Below are positions 17,232 to 23,251 of a stretch of DNA of 64,000 nt, piece by piece (the stretch's first letter is position 1; the number at the start of each line of letters is the position of its first letter). The stretch comes from an uncultured Chlorobiaceae bacterium (GTDB lineage: Bacteria > Bacteroidota > Chlorobiia > Chlorobiales > Chlorobiaceae). The DNA lies in the NCBI GenBank assembly GCA_903882665.1, contig CAIRXW010000017.1, forward strand, positions 1-64,000, written 5' to 3'. The position numbers and the translations under genes are program-made. Below the pieces are notes generated by a model, which did not search any database, had not been told where the DNA came from, and saw nothing but the letters and a program-made list of their open reading frames with translations.

Positions 17232-17280
17232 GAGTTGTCAGTTATCAGTTGTCCATTATCCATTATCCCTTGTCCATTGA
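17225..17280. repeat. Short degenerate repeat (GTTATCAGTTGTCCATTATCC type) after nadK
   Basis: About 55 bp of stuttered TTGTCAG/TTATCAG/TTGTCCA/TTATCCA words. Such low-complexity strings are known between genes in several bacterial groups. It is unlikely to be translated, and so sets the left limit for the start of the next gene. Confidence 0.75.
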
Positions 17281-18761
17281 AGAGTAACAGAATCAGTTCC
17301 CATTCACTCCACCTCCTCCTCGGAATTCCTCTCGATACTCCGCTGGGGATTGATGAGATGTGCAAAAGGCTCAGGCCGGTGCTCTATCCGGCACCGGCAC
17401 TCTCGCCACGGCTTGAACGCTTTTGCTGCGCCCTTGCCGACGCCATGCTCGCTTTGGGGATTGCGGTGCGTTCAGAAGAGCAGGCTGCGGGAAATGACGG
17501 ACGGTTTGCTCCCGGTACCGTCATTCTTGCGCCGGGCTTTTTCCCCGACAATTTGCTGGCCATCAACCGCGTCACAACGCTCTACAACAACATTATTGTC
17601 GGCATTTACGACGAAGCACCGCCGCTTACCCCAAACTCCCTGCCACAGGAGCGGCTCGACGCCATTGTGGGCCGACTTGCCCGCGACATGGTACATATCC
17701 TCATCTTTGTGACCGATCACTCCTGGAGCATCTGCACCATGAACGGCGGAGTGGTCACTTTCAATACTCCGCTTCCCTTGCCGGAAGATGTCCGAAACAC
17801 ACTGGTACCCAAGCTCACGGCACAGGTTGTTCCGCCAAGGGGTGAGGATATTGACATGGAGCTGGGAACGATGGAGTGCCGAACAACAGAGTTCGAGAGT
17901 GTTGCACAGGATTTTCTTGAATGCAGCGCCCTCTGGGGCAGCAATGCCTGCCTCTTGACGCATACCTCAACCGAGGGGCTCGAATACCGCAGCAACTTTT
18001 ACAAGCGGATTGTTGCCCGCTATCTCGACCAGCGAAGCGGCATGAGCTACGGCTTTTTTGCCCGCCAGTTGCCCATTTCTGTACAGCCCGCCATCATACT
18101 CGAAGAACCGGAAGCGATGGACGAACATGGGGAGATGATGGCAGGGATGGTACGGGTCAGTGTGCAGGGGCAAACCCTGCTGGTGCCGGTACCGCAGCTC
18201 CGCGTCATCACCACCCGATCGGGATGCAAAAAAAATCATCTTGAAACAAAGAACGATCTGCTGGAGATCGGGTTGGTGCAGCGCAACGGAAGGGGGCGTG
18301 CCTACCTCAAGACCCCGATGGGCTGCCCCCCGGAGGTTATCGTCAAACCCTCCTTCGACACCCTCACCATTCTGGCTCACGCTCTCGGTAATGCCCTGAC
18401 GGCAAGCATCCTGATGACGCTTCGGCCTGAAGCGCGCTTCCCCCGCCATCTGGCCAGTTTCGGCGCGTCAATGACACACTGGCATGATTATCCGGAGAGC
18501 GGGCTGCTGCCCGAGGGGTACCATAGGCACGGAGAAGAAAATCCGCCGGTCGCCTGCTCAACGCCGCAATCGGCGGCATACAGCATGCTTGGCAAAATAG
18601 CCGCACTTGAAATTGCTCTCGAAGAGGGGAAAAGCTACCGGGGAGATGTGCATGTGGAACCGAACCACGGCACCAACATTGTCGGCATACTTTCACTGGC
18701 AGAAACCGCACGGCTCATGAACCCTGCCCGAACGCCTGAGTTACTTCATGAGGAGCCGTAG
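17277..18761 (+). CDS. Conserved-looking protein of unknown function downstream of nadK
   Basis: A protein of about 490 residues that I cannot assign. Codon use matches the core genes and the frame is long and clean, so it is real. There is no signal peptide, membrane segment, nucleotide-binding loop or metal motif that I recognise. Notable stretches are TEGLEYRSNFYKRIVARYLDQ in the middle (20-residue-scale helix) and DYPESGLLPEGYHRHGEE near the end. The start is uncertain: the frame opens at a TTG at 17235 inside a non-coding repeat; TTG at 17277 keeps LLLGIPLDTPLG, and the first ATG is at 17358. It follows pyrE-tyrA-nadK on the same strand and may be co-transcribed. Confidence 0.7.
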   Translation: MKSNRISSHSLHLLLGIPLDTPLGIDEMCKRLRPVLYPAPALSPRLERFCCALADAMLALGIAVRSEEQAAGNDGRFAPGTVILAPGFFPDNLLAINRVTTLYNNIIVGIYDEAPPLTPNSLPQERLDAIVGRLARDMVHILIFVTDHSWSICTMNGGVVTFNTPLPLPEDVRNTLVPKLTAQVVPPRGEDIDMELGTMECRTTEFESVAQDFLECSALWGSNACLLTHTSTEGLEYRSNFYKRIVARYLDQRSGMSYGFFARQLPISVQPAIILEEPEAMDEHGEMMAGMVRVSVQGQTLLVPVPQLRVITTRSGCKKNHLETKNDLLEIGLVQRNGRGRAYLKTPMGCPPEVIVKPSFDTLTILAHALGNALTASILMTLRPEARFPRHLASFGASMTHWHDYPESGLLPEGYHRHGEENPPVACSTPQSAAYSMLGKIAALEIALEEGKSYRGDVHVEPNHGTNIVGILSLAETARLMNPARTPELLHEEP

Positions 18762-18767
18762 AGGAGG

Positions 18768-19319
18768 CTACTCCTCCTCGACTCCACTCTCGATATAGGG
18801 CCATTTACCCTGCTTCATGAGAATCATCTCGACCAGCTCCCGCACACACCCTTTTCCACCCTCATAGCCCGAAATATAGCCGACACGGTTCCGGAGATAA
18901 TCCGCTCCGTCAATGGCGGTTGCGGGCAGGCCGACTTTTGCAAGCACCCCGATGTCACCGATATCATCGCCGATATAGGCGCACTCCTCATCGGCCAGAT
19001 CGTGCCGCTGGAGAAAGGCTTCGTAGGAGTAAAGGAGGTTTTCACCGTTGAGGTAGAGATCCTGCACGCCGAGCGCCTCAAGCAGGGGGCGGTACCCTTC
19101 TGCATCCCGTTCCGAGAGGACGGCAATATGCACACCCTGCTTCAGCGCCTCCTTGATGGCAACAGCATCGCGGACCGAAATTGAACAGAGCTCCCCTCCG
19201 TTGGAGTCAAAGGTAATGCGGCTGCCGTTCAGAACCCCGTCAACGGGAAACAAAAGCGCCCGGACAGCTTTGAGGGCGAGATCTATTCTTGACGTTGGAT
19301 CAGCTTGCGATGGCTGCAT
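18768..19319 (-). CDS. KdsC-like HAD protein with the nucleophile replaced
   Basis: A 183-residue protein that aligns along its length with 3-deoxy-D-manno-octulosonate 8-phosphate phosphatase: VRALLFPVDGVLNGS, ISVRDAVAIKEAL, IAVLSERDAEGY, YIGDDIGDIGVLAKVGL. In active KdsC the first motif is DxDGVLTDG; here the first Asp is Pro (P25, codon CCC at 19245-19247), so the phospho-acceptor is missing while D27 and the GDD motif stay. It may be inactive, structural or regulatory. It follows kdsA by 38 bp. ATG at 19319 gives the family length; an ATG at 19385 would overlap kdsA. Confidence 0.85.
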   Translation of the reverse strand: MQPSQADPTSRIDLALKAVRALLFPVDGVLNGSRITFDSNGGELCSISVRDAVAIKEALKQGVHIAVLSERDAEGYRPLLEALGVQDLYLNGENLLYSYEAFLQRHDLADEECAYIGDDIGDIGVLAKVGLPATAIDGADYLRNRVGYISGYEGGKGCVRELVEMILMKQGKWPYIESGVEEE

Positions 19320-19357
19320 ACCGAAATATTGAAACCCTTCCAAGAGCGTATAATATT

Positions 19358-20188
19358 TTAAAGTGAATGAAGAGTGTGCACACACCGGTAAAGGTGGAGC
19401 AGTTGTTTGACCATCGTGCCGAAATCGGCCAGAGCAATCTGTGTGGTGGCATCCGAGAGCGCTTTGGGCGGATCGGGATGAATCTCAAAAAAGAGGCCAT
19501 CAACACCAGCGGCAACCGCTGCACGGGCCAGAGGCATCACATACTGCCGCTCTCCGCCTGAAACCCCCTGGCCTGCCCCCGGCAGTTGCAGACTGTGGGT
19601 CGCATCATAGAGCACCGGATAGCCTGATTCCGCCATTTTGGCCAGCCCCCTGAAATCAACAACAAGGTTGTGATAGCCGAAGCTTGATCCCCTTTCGGTC
19701 AGCATGACCCGCCGGTTGCCGGTCTGGACAACCTTGTCTGCGGCGAGGACCATGTCCTCAGGAGCCATAAACTGCCCCTTCTTGATATTAACCGCAAGAC
19801 CGCTCTCTCCGGCAGCCACCAGAAGCTCCGTCTGACGGCAGAGAAATGCCGGGATCTGCAGCACATCAACATAGCGGGCTGCAAGAGTAACATCCTTTGT
19901 TTCATGCACATCGGTAATCACCGGCATGTCATAGCCCTGGCGAATTTCGGCAAGCACTTCGAGCGCCTCGACATCGCCGATACCGGTAAAAGAGGAGCCG
20001 GATGTTCGGTTTGCTTTTCGGTAAGAGCCCTTGAAAATAAAACGAACGCCCTCCTGACGGCTTATGCGCTGCAACTCTTCGGCTGTCTGCATAGCCATGG
20101 TCCGGCTTTCGATCACACAGGGACCCGCTATAAACAGCGGAGTGCTGTCGTCAGGAACAGAGAGTGCGCCAATTGAGAACTTTTCCAC
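19358..20188 (-). CDS. kdsA: 3-deoxy-8-phosphooctulonate synthase
   Basis: A 276-residue enzyme that condenses PEP with arabinose 5-phosphate to make KDO 8-phosphate for LPS. Motifs: [76 protein letters not shown] and [13 protein letters not shown]. The C11-type cysteine region (GPC) suggests a metal-dependent class, but that assignment needs alignment. It is divergent from the short clpB gene and leads into the KdsC-like gene. Confidence 0.96.
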
Positions 20189-20307: not shown

Positions 20308-21630
20308 ATGAGCATCGCCGACACGAAACAACGGCTTGAGGAGATAGAAAAACAGCTCGCAAACCTCATCGAGGAACAGACCGTCATCAAGGCAAAATGG
20401 GAGAGCGAGAAGGAGCTGATTCAGTCATCACGCAACCTGAAATCGCAGCTCGAGGAGCTCCGTGTGCAGGCCGAGGAGTTTGAGCGGCAGGGCGACTACG
20501 GCAAGGTGGCCGAAATCCGTTATGGAAAAACAGTCGCCATTGAACGGCAGATCGAAGAGAACCGCCAGAAAATCGAAGCGAAAAAGGCCTCCGGCGACCT
20601 GATCATGAAAGAGGAGATCGACGCCGAAGACATTGCCGATATTGTCTCAAAATGGACCGGCATCCCCCTCAGCAAGATGCTCCAGTCGGACCGCCAGAAG
20701 CTGCTGCTTATCGAAGAGGAGTTGCACAAACGGGTGATCGGGCAGGAGGAGGCCGTCACGGCGGTCAGCGAAGCGGTCAAGCGCTCCCGGGCAGGCATGG
20801 GTGACGACAAGCGGCCAATCGGCTCCTTTATCTTCCTTGGGCCGACAGGTGTCGGAAAAACCGAGCTTGCCCGCACCCTGGCCGACTATCTTTTTGACGA
20901 CGAAGAGGCGATGATACGCATCGACATGAGCGAATACATGGAGTCGCATACCGTCAGCCGTCTGGTGGGTGCCCCTCCCGGATACGTCGGCTATGAAGAG
21001 GGGGGTCAGCTCACCGAAGCGGTGCGCCGCAAACCCTTTGCCGTTGTGCTGCTCGACGAAATCGAGAAAGCGCACCCCGACGTCTTCAACATCCTTTTAC
21101 AGATTCTCGATGACGGACGCCTGACCGACAGCAAGGGACGGACGGTGAACTTCAAAAACACCATCATCATCATGACGAGCAACATCGGCGCCCAGCTCAT
21201 CCAGTCGGAAATGGAGAAGCTTGAGGGAGTGAACCGCGATGTCATGCTCTCCGGCCTTCAGGAAAAGCTCTTCCTGCTCCTGAAGCAGAAGGTAAAGCCC
21301 GAGTTTCTCAACCGCATTGACGAGGTTATCCTCTTCACGCCGCTGACAAGGGAAGATTTGAAAAAAATTGTGTTGATCCAGTTTGACCGCATCAAGGCGA
21401 CGGCATTGCGGCAGCGCATCAACCTCACCATCTCTGAAGCGGCCATACAATGGTTTGCCAATGCTGGCTTCGATCCGGCGTTCGGCGCCCGGCCACTCAA
21501 ACGGGTGATGCAGCGCAAAATCACCAACCGTGTTTCAGCACTTATTCTTTCGGGTGAAATCGGGGAGGGAGAAGAGGTGGCCATCGACATGGCCGATGGC
21601 GAACTGAGCATCATGAAAGCGGTCTCCTGA
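20308..21630 (+). CDS. Short ClpB paralogue: middle domain plus second AAA module only
   Basis: A 440-residue protein. Residues 1-100 are the coiled-coil ClpB middle domain, including [13 protein letters not shown]; a linker ends in [13 protein letters not shown]; then the second nucleotide-binding domain follows with Walker A GPTGVGKT at 178-185, Walker [14 protein letters not shown] and the C-terminal small domain [11 protein letters not shown]. The N domain and first AAA domain of full ClpB (about 860 residues) are absent. A start codon, clean leader and divergent neighbour (kdsA) show it is a free-standing gene, not a cut one. I recall a similar short ClpB annotated in Chlorobaculum tepidum, unchecked. 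The next gene starts at its stop. Confidence 0.88.
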
Positions 21631-22760
21631 TGCCGAATAAAAACCCATCGCGTGTGCTGGCGACAGTGCTGCTCCTCACCCTTCTTTGCCTGCCCGCACA
21701 AGCCACAAAAAAAGCCGACAGCCTCTCCGTTAAAATCGGACAAATGCTCATGATCGGCTTCCGGGGAGTCAGCCTTGCCGAGACTCCCCAAATCGCGGCG
21801 GACATTTGTGAGCGCCATATCGGCGGAGTGGTGCTCTTCGACTACGACGTCCCCTCGCACTCTCCATCAAGGAACATCAGCAGCCCGGAGCAGCTCGCCC
21901 GCCTGACGCAGGAGTTGCAAAAGATGAGCAAGATCCCGCTCCTGATTGCCATCGACCAGGAGGGGGGAAAGGTCAACCGCCTCAAACCGGCAAGGGGATT
22001 TCCTCCCAGCACGTCAGCCGACCATCTTGGAGTGCTCAACAATCCGGACAGCACCCGCGCCGCAGCCCTGCAGTGCGCCCGAACGCTGAAGGCGATGCAC
22101 ATCAACCTCAATCTTGCCCCCGTGGCCGACCTGAACGTCAACCCTGACAATCCGGTCATCGGCAAACTTGGCCGCAGCTTTTCAGCCGACCCCGCCGTCG
22201 TCATCAGCAACATCAACCTCACTTGCAGCGCATACCGTGAGGAGGGCATTATTGAGACGCTGAAACACTTCCCCGGCCACGGCAGCTCAACCACCGACAC
22301 CCATCGCGACTTTACCGACATCACCGAAAGCTGGACGGAAAAAGAGCTGGAGCCCTACCGTGTCCTCATTGCCGCCGGCTACCGTGACCCCATCATGACC
22401 GCACATGTCTTCAATGGCAAGCTCGACCCGCTCTATCCGGCAACACTGTCGAAGGCAATTCTCGACGGAGTACTCCGCGGAAAACTCGGCTTCACTGGAG
22501 TGATTGTGAGCGACGACATGCAGATGAAGGCAATTGCCGACCATTACGGCCTTGAAACAGCCATCCAGTTGGCCATTGAGGCGGGTGTCGATATACTGCT
22601 CTTTGGAAACAACACCTCTTACGACCCGGAAATTGCCTCAAAAGCAACAGCAATCATCCACTCGCTGCTGCAAAAAAAGATTATTACCGAGGAACGCATC
22701 AACCGTTCATACCAGAGAATCATGGAACTCAAACAACGTTACCACATCAACCGAACATGA
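21630..22760 (+). CDS. Exported glycoside hydrolase family 3 beta-N-acetylhexosaminidase
   Basis: A 376-residue protein with a signal peptide (RVLATVLLLTLLCLPAQA) and a GH3 barrel: IGQMLMIGFRG, IDQEGGKVNRLKPARGFPP, LAPVADLNVNPDNPVIG, the substrate loop KHFPGHGSSTTDTHRD and the nucleophile strand GVIVSDDMQM. NagZ enzymes cleave GlcNAc from anhydro-muropeptides; the E. coli enzyme is cytoplasmic, so the export signal here suggests periplasmic peptidoglycan or chitooligosaccharide turnover. It begins within the stop of the short clpB gene and its own stop overlaps the next gene. Confidence 0.92.
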   Translation: MPNKNPSRVLATVLLLTLLCLPAQATKKADSLSVKIGQMLMIGFRGVSLAETPQIAADICERHIGGVVLFDYDVPSHSPSRNISSPEQLARLTQELQKMSKIPLLIAIDQEGGKVNRLKPARGFPPSTSADHLGVLNNPDSTRAAALQCARTLKAMHINLNLAPVADLNVNPDNPVIGKLGRSFSADPAVVISNINLTCSAYREEGIIETLKHFPGHGSSTTDTHRDFTDITESWTEKELEPYRVLIAAGYRDPIMTAHVFNGKLDPLYPATLSKAILDGVLRGKLGFTGVIVSDDMQMKAIADHYGLETAIQLAIEAGVDILLFGNNTSYDPEIASKATAIIHSLLQKKIITEERINRSYQRIMELKQRYHINRT

Positions 22761-23251
22761 AAACTATCTACCTTGTCCGTCACGCCAAATCAGACTGGGG
22801 AAACGCCAATACCGGCGATTTCGACCGGACGCTGAACGCTCGTGGCATGAAAAATGCCCCCGTCATGGCGGCACGGCTGAAGCAAAAAGGAATTCTCCCG
22901 GAAGTTGTCATTTCGAGCCCCGCAACAAGGGCCCTCACCACAGCGGAGCTCTTCAGCGAAACGCTCGGCTTCCCGGAAGAGAAGATCCTGCAACGCATTG
23001 AAATCTACCGGGGAGGAGTACTCGATCTGCTTAAAATTGTCCAGCAAATCCCCGACACCTGCGAGTCATCCATGCTTTTCGGCCACAACCCGACGCTGAC
23101 AGAGTTTTCGAACCTGCTTGCCGGGAGTTACATCGAAAATGTGGCAACCTGCGGAGTGGTCAAAATTGAGCTCGATATCGAATCGTGGAAGAGTGCAAAT
23201 CCTGATGGCGGCAAACTGATCTGGTACGACTTTCCCAAAAAACACCAGTAG
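22757..23251 (+). CDS. SixA-like histidine phosphatase
   Basis: A 164-residue protein of the histidine phosphatase superfamily. The phospho-accepting motif YLVRHAKSDWG (His 9) is at the N-terminus, SSPATRALTTAE carries the second Arg, and MLFGHNPTLTEFSN carries the second catalytic His. SixA dephosphorylates phosphohistidine proteins in enteric bacteria; the target here is unknown. It overlaps the GH3 gene by ATGA, completing a clpB-GH3-sixA operon, and ends 4 bp from the convergent gpsA. Confidence 0.9.
   Translation: MKTIYLVRHAKSDWGNANTGDFDRTLNARGMKNAPVMAARLKQKGILPEVVISSPATRALTTAELFSETLGFPEEKILQRIEIYRGGVLDLLKIVQQIPDTCESSMLFGHNPTLTEFSNLLAGSYIENVATCGVVKIELDIESWKSANPDGGKLIWYDFPKKHQ

Follow-up and report, generated by a model that had tools for sequence, protein, structure and literature searches.

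KdsC, the 3-deoxy-D-manno-octulosonate 8-phosphate (KDO8P) phosphatase in the synthesis of KDO, an essential sugar of the outer membrane, is the closest described relative (TIGR01670, YrbI; HAD subclass C0; solved structure 4hgn) of the protein considered here, which is encoded in a window of 64,000 nucleotides, the whole stretch of DNA that was analysed. The two are alike in family assignment by sequence, in the C-terminal GGxGC-RE loop, in the second Asp of motif I, in the Asp pair of motif IV, in having kdsA as neighbour and in their grouping in the tree. They differ in that the window protein lacks the nucleophilic Asp and the motif III Lys, has Leu at the position of Arg64 of BT1713, and carries an additional N-terminal stretch, FQ(F/Y)FGMQP. 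The second system to be compared is the KDN9P phosphatase (BT1713, 3e81; NF058599). It is resembled not by the window protein, which is not of the KDN9P type, but by an intact paralogue encoded elsewhere in the same genome; these two share a Glu/Lys pair, a NeuB-like neighbour and one side of the tree.

In pseudophosphatases generally the catalytic residue is gone and the fold is kept, with a presumed role in binding or regulation. The window protein fits that description. We know of no described pseudophosphatase in the KdsC family, and a literature search, which left most subscription journals outside its reach, turned up no publication dealing with an inactive KdsC or with what KdsC does in Chlorobi.

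A KdsC pathway hole is described in Rickettsia and other bacteria with the CMP-KDO pathway (PMC5615194). The likeness to the present case is a CMP-KDO pathway without a working classical KdsC; the difference is that there the gene is absent, whereas here the gene is present and strong selection maintains it although the nucleophile is lost. The present case bears on which enzyme removes the phosphate where no working KdsC exists, and the likely true source of the activity is the paralogue. Since KdsC is annotated by homology, the genomes of this order would be credited with a KDO8P phosphatase for which the known mechanism is not available. The case would offer a clean and testable example of a pseudoenzyme that derives from a core enzyme of lipopolysaccharide synthesis and has been retained throughout an order.

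The window gene and its active site

A minus-strand ORF at 18768–19319 encodes a 183-residue KdsC-family protein, a homologue of KDO-8-phosphate phosphatase, which contains RALLFPVDGVLNGSRITFD. Motif I reads FPVDGVLNGS, and the coding-strand codon at 19245–19247 is CCC (Pro) in place of the nucleophilic Asp. Against the NCBIfam subfamily model TIGR01670 the protein scores 118.6 bits, above the cut-off of 106.95; against the KdsC equivalog NF007019 it scores 115.7 bits, below the cut-off of 208. The closest solved structure, at E 1.4e-33, is 4hgn, deposited as KDO8P phosphohydrolase and presumably from B. thetaiotaomicron; its site reads DVDGV. Relatives of the window protein that come from named genomes belong to Chlorobiaceae and Chlorobium. 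Directly upstream, at 19358–20188 on the minus strand, lies kdsA (TIGR01362, 355 bits against a cut-off of 314). The preliminary description, of a KdsC homologue without its nucleophilic Asp in a preserved kdsA neighbourhood, is borne out on both points by the sequence, by TIGR01670 and TIGR01362 and by alignment with 4hgn.

Where does the gene begin? Its start is probably the TTG at 19343 rather than the ATG at 19319, since the conserved FQ(F/Y)FGMQP begins before the ATG. A pattern search finds this stretch in 77 of the 78 nucleophile-less copies, and it can be recognized by eye in the 78th (L120). It is absent from the intact copy of genome G240 and from six Bacteroidota KdsC. Conservation was counted over three classes: 78 distinct nucleophile-less sequences, 48 distinct paralogues and 7 intact KdsC, with both copies from genome G093 (L070, L140) omitted. 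The features are as follows, residues being numbered from the ATG.

18768–19343, minus strand: kdsC-like gene of a putative pseudophosphatase; 191 residues from the probable TTG, 183 from the ATG at 19319
19287–19343, minus strand: conserved N-terminal stretch LEGFQYFGMQPSQADPTSR; in nucleophile-less copies, not in the G240 orthologue or the six Bacteroidota KdsC
19245–19247, minus strand: codon CCC, Pro25, at the HAD nucleophile position; aligned with the Asp of 4hgn and of E. coli KdsC
19233–19241, minus strand: Asp27-Gly28-Val29, with the second Asp of motif I; kept, 78/78 nucleophile-less sequences
19107–19109, minus strand: Arg71; 78/78 nucleophile-less copies, Glu in 48/48 paralogues
19035–19037, minus strand: Leu95 at the position of the motif III Lys; Lys in 11/78 nucleophile-less copies, 7/7 intact KdsC and 48/48 paralogues
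18963–18968, minus strand: Asp118-Asp119 of motif IV; kept
18837–18860, minus strand: C-terminal GGKGCVRE loop; GG-G and R invariant across all three classes
19358–20188, minus strand: kdsA (3-deoxy-8-phosphooctulonate synthase); same direction, upstream, 14 bases from the probable TTG start

If the nucleophile is gone, how much of the active site is left? The remaining motifs had been described as kept. This holds for the second Asp of motif I (the acid/base residue), which is invariant among the nucleophile-less sequences, for the motif II Ser (Ser69, retained in 68 of 78) and for motif IV, where Asp118 is found in all 78 and Asp119 in 76. It does not hold for the motif III Lys, Leu95 in the window protein and missing from 67 of the 78 copies, nor for the equivalent of BT1713 Arg64, which is Leu79 in the window protein and Arg in 10 of 78. 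Both Arg79 and the motif III Lys are mostly kept in the outer families f2 and f3 and gone in f1, the family of the window protein. This distribution suggests that the loss of the nucleophile was the first step, and that further active-site residues were lost afterwards in f1.

The nucleophile site across the order

Is the CCC codon peculiar to this genome? We searched 98 genomes of the order (Chlorobiaceae and relatives) for KdsC-like copies. A copy of the window type was present, and its motif was read, in 95 of them, that of G235 from two contig pieces. The nucleophilic Asp is replaced in 94 of these 95 copies, by Pro (68), Ser (17), Asn (4), Thr (3), Ala (1) or Val (1); the copy of G102 (L041), for example, has Ser. 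G240 is the sole genome of the 95 to retain the Asp. In the rest of the phylum both Asps are present in 60/60 copies of one sample, hand-picked from the match list in rough score order and then from single-copy genomes, and in 8/8 of another. A nucleophile-less KdsC is the order-wide state, not a lone mutation.

No copy of the window type was found in G110, G217 or G221, and a kdsA match is missing from the same three genomes. From G110 (99% complete, sister genus) kdsB and kdsD were recovered, while searches for kdsA, the dead kdsC and the WaaA domain found nothing; these gaps are either real losses or assembly gaps. The paralogue of G110 is at L137. In the single-contig genome G048, kdsA (L038:4597–5414) consists of two overlapping frames, by frameshift or sequencing error.

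Purifying selection on the gene was gauged by the Nei–Gojobori method on chosen pairs of loci among close relatives, several with dS values above 1. On this measure dN/dS is 0.024–0.074 for the window gene against 11 relatives, 0.037–0.060 for kdsA (11 comparisons) and 0.104–0.197 for the paralogue (9 comparisons), which evolves faster. Since selection on the window-type gene is strong (0.02–0.07) and like that on kdsA, this gene is neither an error nor decaying. The read error and the lone mutant that the preliminary description had entertained are thereby disposed of; together the order census and dN/dS rule out sequencing error, lone mutant and pseudogene. In favour of a sequencing error or a decaying pseudogene there is only the first reading of one sequence, and with 94 of 95 copies lacking the Asp at a dN/dS of about 0.05 we give it practically no credence. 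What marks a pseudoenzyme is a catalytic residue gone from a sequence that remains constrained, and both are found in the window-type protein.

Could the protein still act as a phosphatase by other chemistry, attack coming from the second Asp or directly from water? The retained Asp27, Ser69, Asp118 and Asp119 would be in keeping with this. However, HAD phosphatases require the first Asp, six chemically unlike residues occupy its site in this order, and the motif III Lys has gone from most copies. Such chemistry is highly improbable, and we consider it very unlikely, from the residues present, that the window protein is a phosphatase at all.

Into the tree went 40 of the 78 nucleophile-less sequences, together with 16 paralogues, 9 intact copies and six chains of solved structures. 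In it the window type groups with Bacteroidota KdsC and 4hgn (99/96). With the dead copies placed as one clade p-AU is 0.446, so that the tree leaves a single loss of the Asp and repeated losses undecided, and it does not settle the branch order among G240, f2, f3 and f1. In the history that we favour, the nucleophilic Asp would have disappeared from a KdsC orthologue while the order was at an early stage of its radiation.

The KDO pathway and the intact paralogue next to NeuB

If the window-type protein does not remove the phosphate from KDO8P, what does? Among the 98 genomes of the order, kdsA is found in 95, kdsB over its cut-off in 90, kdsD over its cut-off in 94 and the WaaA domain in 92. 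KDO was detected by HPLC in the LOS of Chlorobaculum tepidum (PMC12285230). With KdsA, KdsB, KdsD and WaaA encoded in these genomes and KDO measured in Chlorobaculum tepidum, the phosphate must be removed by something other than the window-type protein.

The genome was searched for a second KdsC, as had been proposed, and an intact paralogue was found on contig C30 of the source genome. It reads DNDGVFTDN, is 27% identical to the window protein and is followed by a NeuB-like gene. Within the order the paralogue is found in 93 of 98 genomes (it is missing from G203, G227, G235, G238 and G240) and a NeuB match in 96 of 98. Both Asps of its motif (DxD) are present in 55/55 loci of one set, which counts both copies from the outgroup G093 as well as some genomes twice, and in 13/13 of another. 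The NeuB-like protein next to the paralogue (L002:2054–2923, 289 residues) has a NeuB domain; a SAF domain was not found by Pfam.

What is the specificity of the paralogue likely to be? All 48 sequences have Glu71 and Lys82, a pair that we take to be the mark of KDN9P phosphatases, that is, of specificity for nonulosonate-9-phosphate rather than KDO8P; the deposited chain 4hgq has Ala at the Glu position. In the tree the paralogue groups with the KDN9P phosphatase 3e81 and the two G093 copies (99/97), 3e81 being a long branch that drew a warning from the tool. Against the KDN9P phosphatase model NF058599, however, the paralogue scores 142.1 bits, below the cut-off of 180.

The Glu/Lys pair and the NeuB neighbour are what would be expected if the window protein were dead, the paralogue served the NeuB product only, and an unrelated or nonspecific phosphatase made KDO from KDO8P. 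A candidate of that kind lies in the window itself, three genes past kdsA: a gene of the histidine phosphatase family (PF00300) at 22757–23251 on the plus strand, with ORFs resembling it at the equivalent place in L033 and L183. On the other hand, seven genomes of the phylum (G059, G086, G101, G160, G168, G192 and G196) have KdsA over its cut-off and no NeuB match, and the single KdsC-family protein detected in each of them is of the Glu/Lys type. KdsB is over its cut-off in six of the seven and below it in G059. The gene content of these genomes suggests that enzymes of the Glu/Lys type may carry out the KDO step. One more genome, G180, has KdsA without NeuB; its single copy belongs to neither type, with Lys/Thr at the pair positions. 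In six others (G047, G074, G132, G140, G164 and G184) the single KdsC-family copy adjoins NeuB, with KdsA also present. A pattern scan of neighbourhood ORFs, confined to the HAD motif and leaving aside other phosphatase families, saw no HAD-type DxDG/T candidate beside kdsB, kdsD, waaA or the relocated kdsA. All in all we think it fairly unlikely that an unrelated or nonspecific phosphatase is at work.

The paralogue beside the NeuB-like gene is thus, as we infer, the best candidate for the KDO8P phosphatase. Our preferred reading, to which we lean without great assurance, is that the window gene encodes a pseudophosphatase retained in a non-catalytic capacity, and that KDO-8-phosphate is most likely converted to KDO by this intact enzyme of the KdsC/KDN9P-phosphatase type. 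Redundancy with the paralogue would then have let the kdsA-linked copy give up catalysis.

Is the Asp kept where the paralogue is absent? In G240 (97% complete, 420 contigs) the paralogue was not found, and its NeuB-family matches are weak only (best 1.2e-12) and probably of the DAHP-synthase kind. Of the order genomes that are at least 95% complete, no other lacks both the second KdsC-like gene and a true NeuB. The KdsC of G240 keeps DLDGV and the motif III Lys, with Trp at position 79 (that of BT1713 Arg64), and, as in the window, its neighbours by ORF resemblance include pyrE, tyrA and NAD kinase. An Asp kept where the paralogue is absent is what takeover by the paralogue predicts, in this one lineage only; the absence of the paralogue may also reflect the NeuB pathway alone. 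Four other genomes in which the paralogue was not found have the Asp replaced nonetheless: G238 (91% complete, 40 contigs) by Pro, and G203, G227 and G235 (77–84% complete) by Ser, Pro and Pro. Since the paralogue and NeuB are neighbours, missing contigs may explain its absence from these four. As they stand, the four genomes count against the preferred reading, as do the reliance of the contrast between paralogue and Asp on G240 with its Trp79, the faster evolution of the paralogue, and a Glu71/Lys82 enzyme that adjoins NeuB and not kdsA.

Putative roles of the retained protein

The preliminary description had offered two outcomes, either another enzyme performing the step or a new role for this protein. 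Both are supported, and jointly: the genome does contain an intact paralogue, and the nucleophile-less protein is under strong constraint. What might that role be? The retained protein would most likely be a binding subunit, which either partners KdsA in allostery or assembly or joins the paralogue in a mixed oligomer. Features kept in this putative subunit are the C-terminal loop, the second Asp, Arg71 and the conserved N-terminal stretch. An AlphaFold2 model of the window protein, aligned with 21 of 29 loci, has a mean pLDDT of 56.9, too poor to use.

The adjacency to kdsA is kept in the f1 and f2 copies checked and in part of f3. In G075, G133 and G241–G243, by contrast, the best kdsA is 49–52% identical and located elsewhere, and the Asp-less gene is still kept. 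The proposal that the protein holds KdsA is weakened accordingly; KdsA is a putative partner, but one for which the original linkage is not needed, since the Asp-less gene stays in these five genomes.

The main alternative to a KdsA partner is the mixed oligomer, in which the dead subunit would shape or specify the active site of the paralogue; this overlaps with the binding role in the preferred reading. In KdsC tetramers neighbouring subunits give the active site its shape or specificity. Both genes co-occur in nearly all genomes of the order, GG-G and R of the C-terminal loop do not vary in either class, Arg71 does not vary in the dead class, and the dead protein remains in genomes that have lost the kdsA next to it. 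Against this, the dead protein and the paralogue are just 27% identical, their genes are unlinked, and residues 79 and 95 have also gone in most f1 copies. We judge the mixed oligomer unlikely. In a bolder form of the preferred reading, KDO synthesis would depend on the dead KdsC, conserved throughout the order, as a subunit without catalysis of its own that tunes KdsA or else gives the paralogue its specificity in a mixed oligomer. The KDO8P phosphatase of green sulfur bacteria would then be split over two proteins; this we put forward tentatively, as somewhat improbable.

Two further ORFs flank the pair in the window. A 508-residue ORF at 17235–18761 (plus strand) is convergent with the dead kdsC and has no Pfam match at E 0.001; ORFs with similar beginnings occupy the equivalent place in L033 and L183. 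On the other side of kdsA, at 20308–21630 (plus strand), is a ClpB-like protein of 440 residues in which Pfam shows the second AAA domain and the D2-small domain only. ORFs of about 440 residues with a similar start lie beside the equivalent locus in the relatives L033, L046 and L048.
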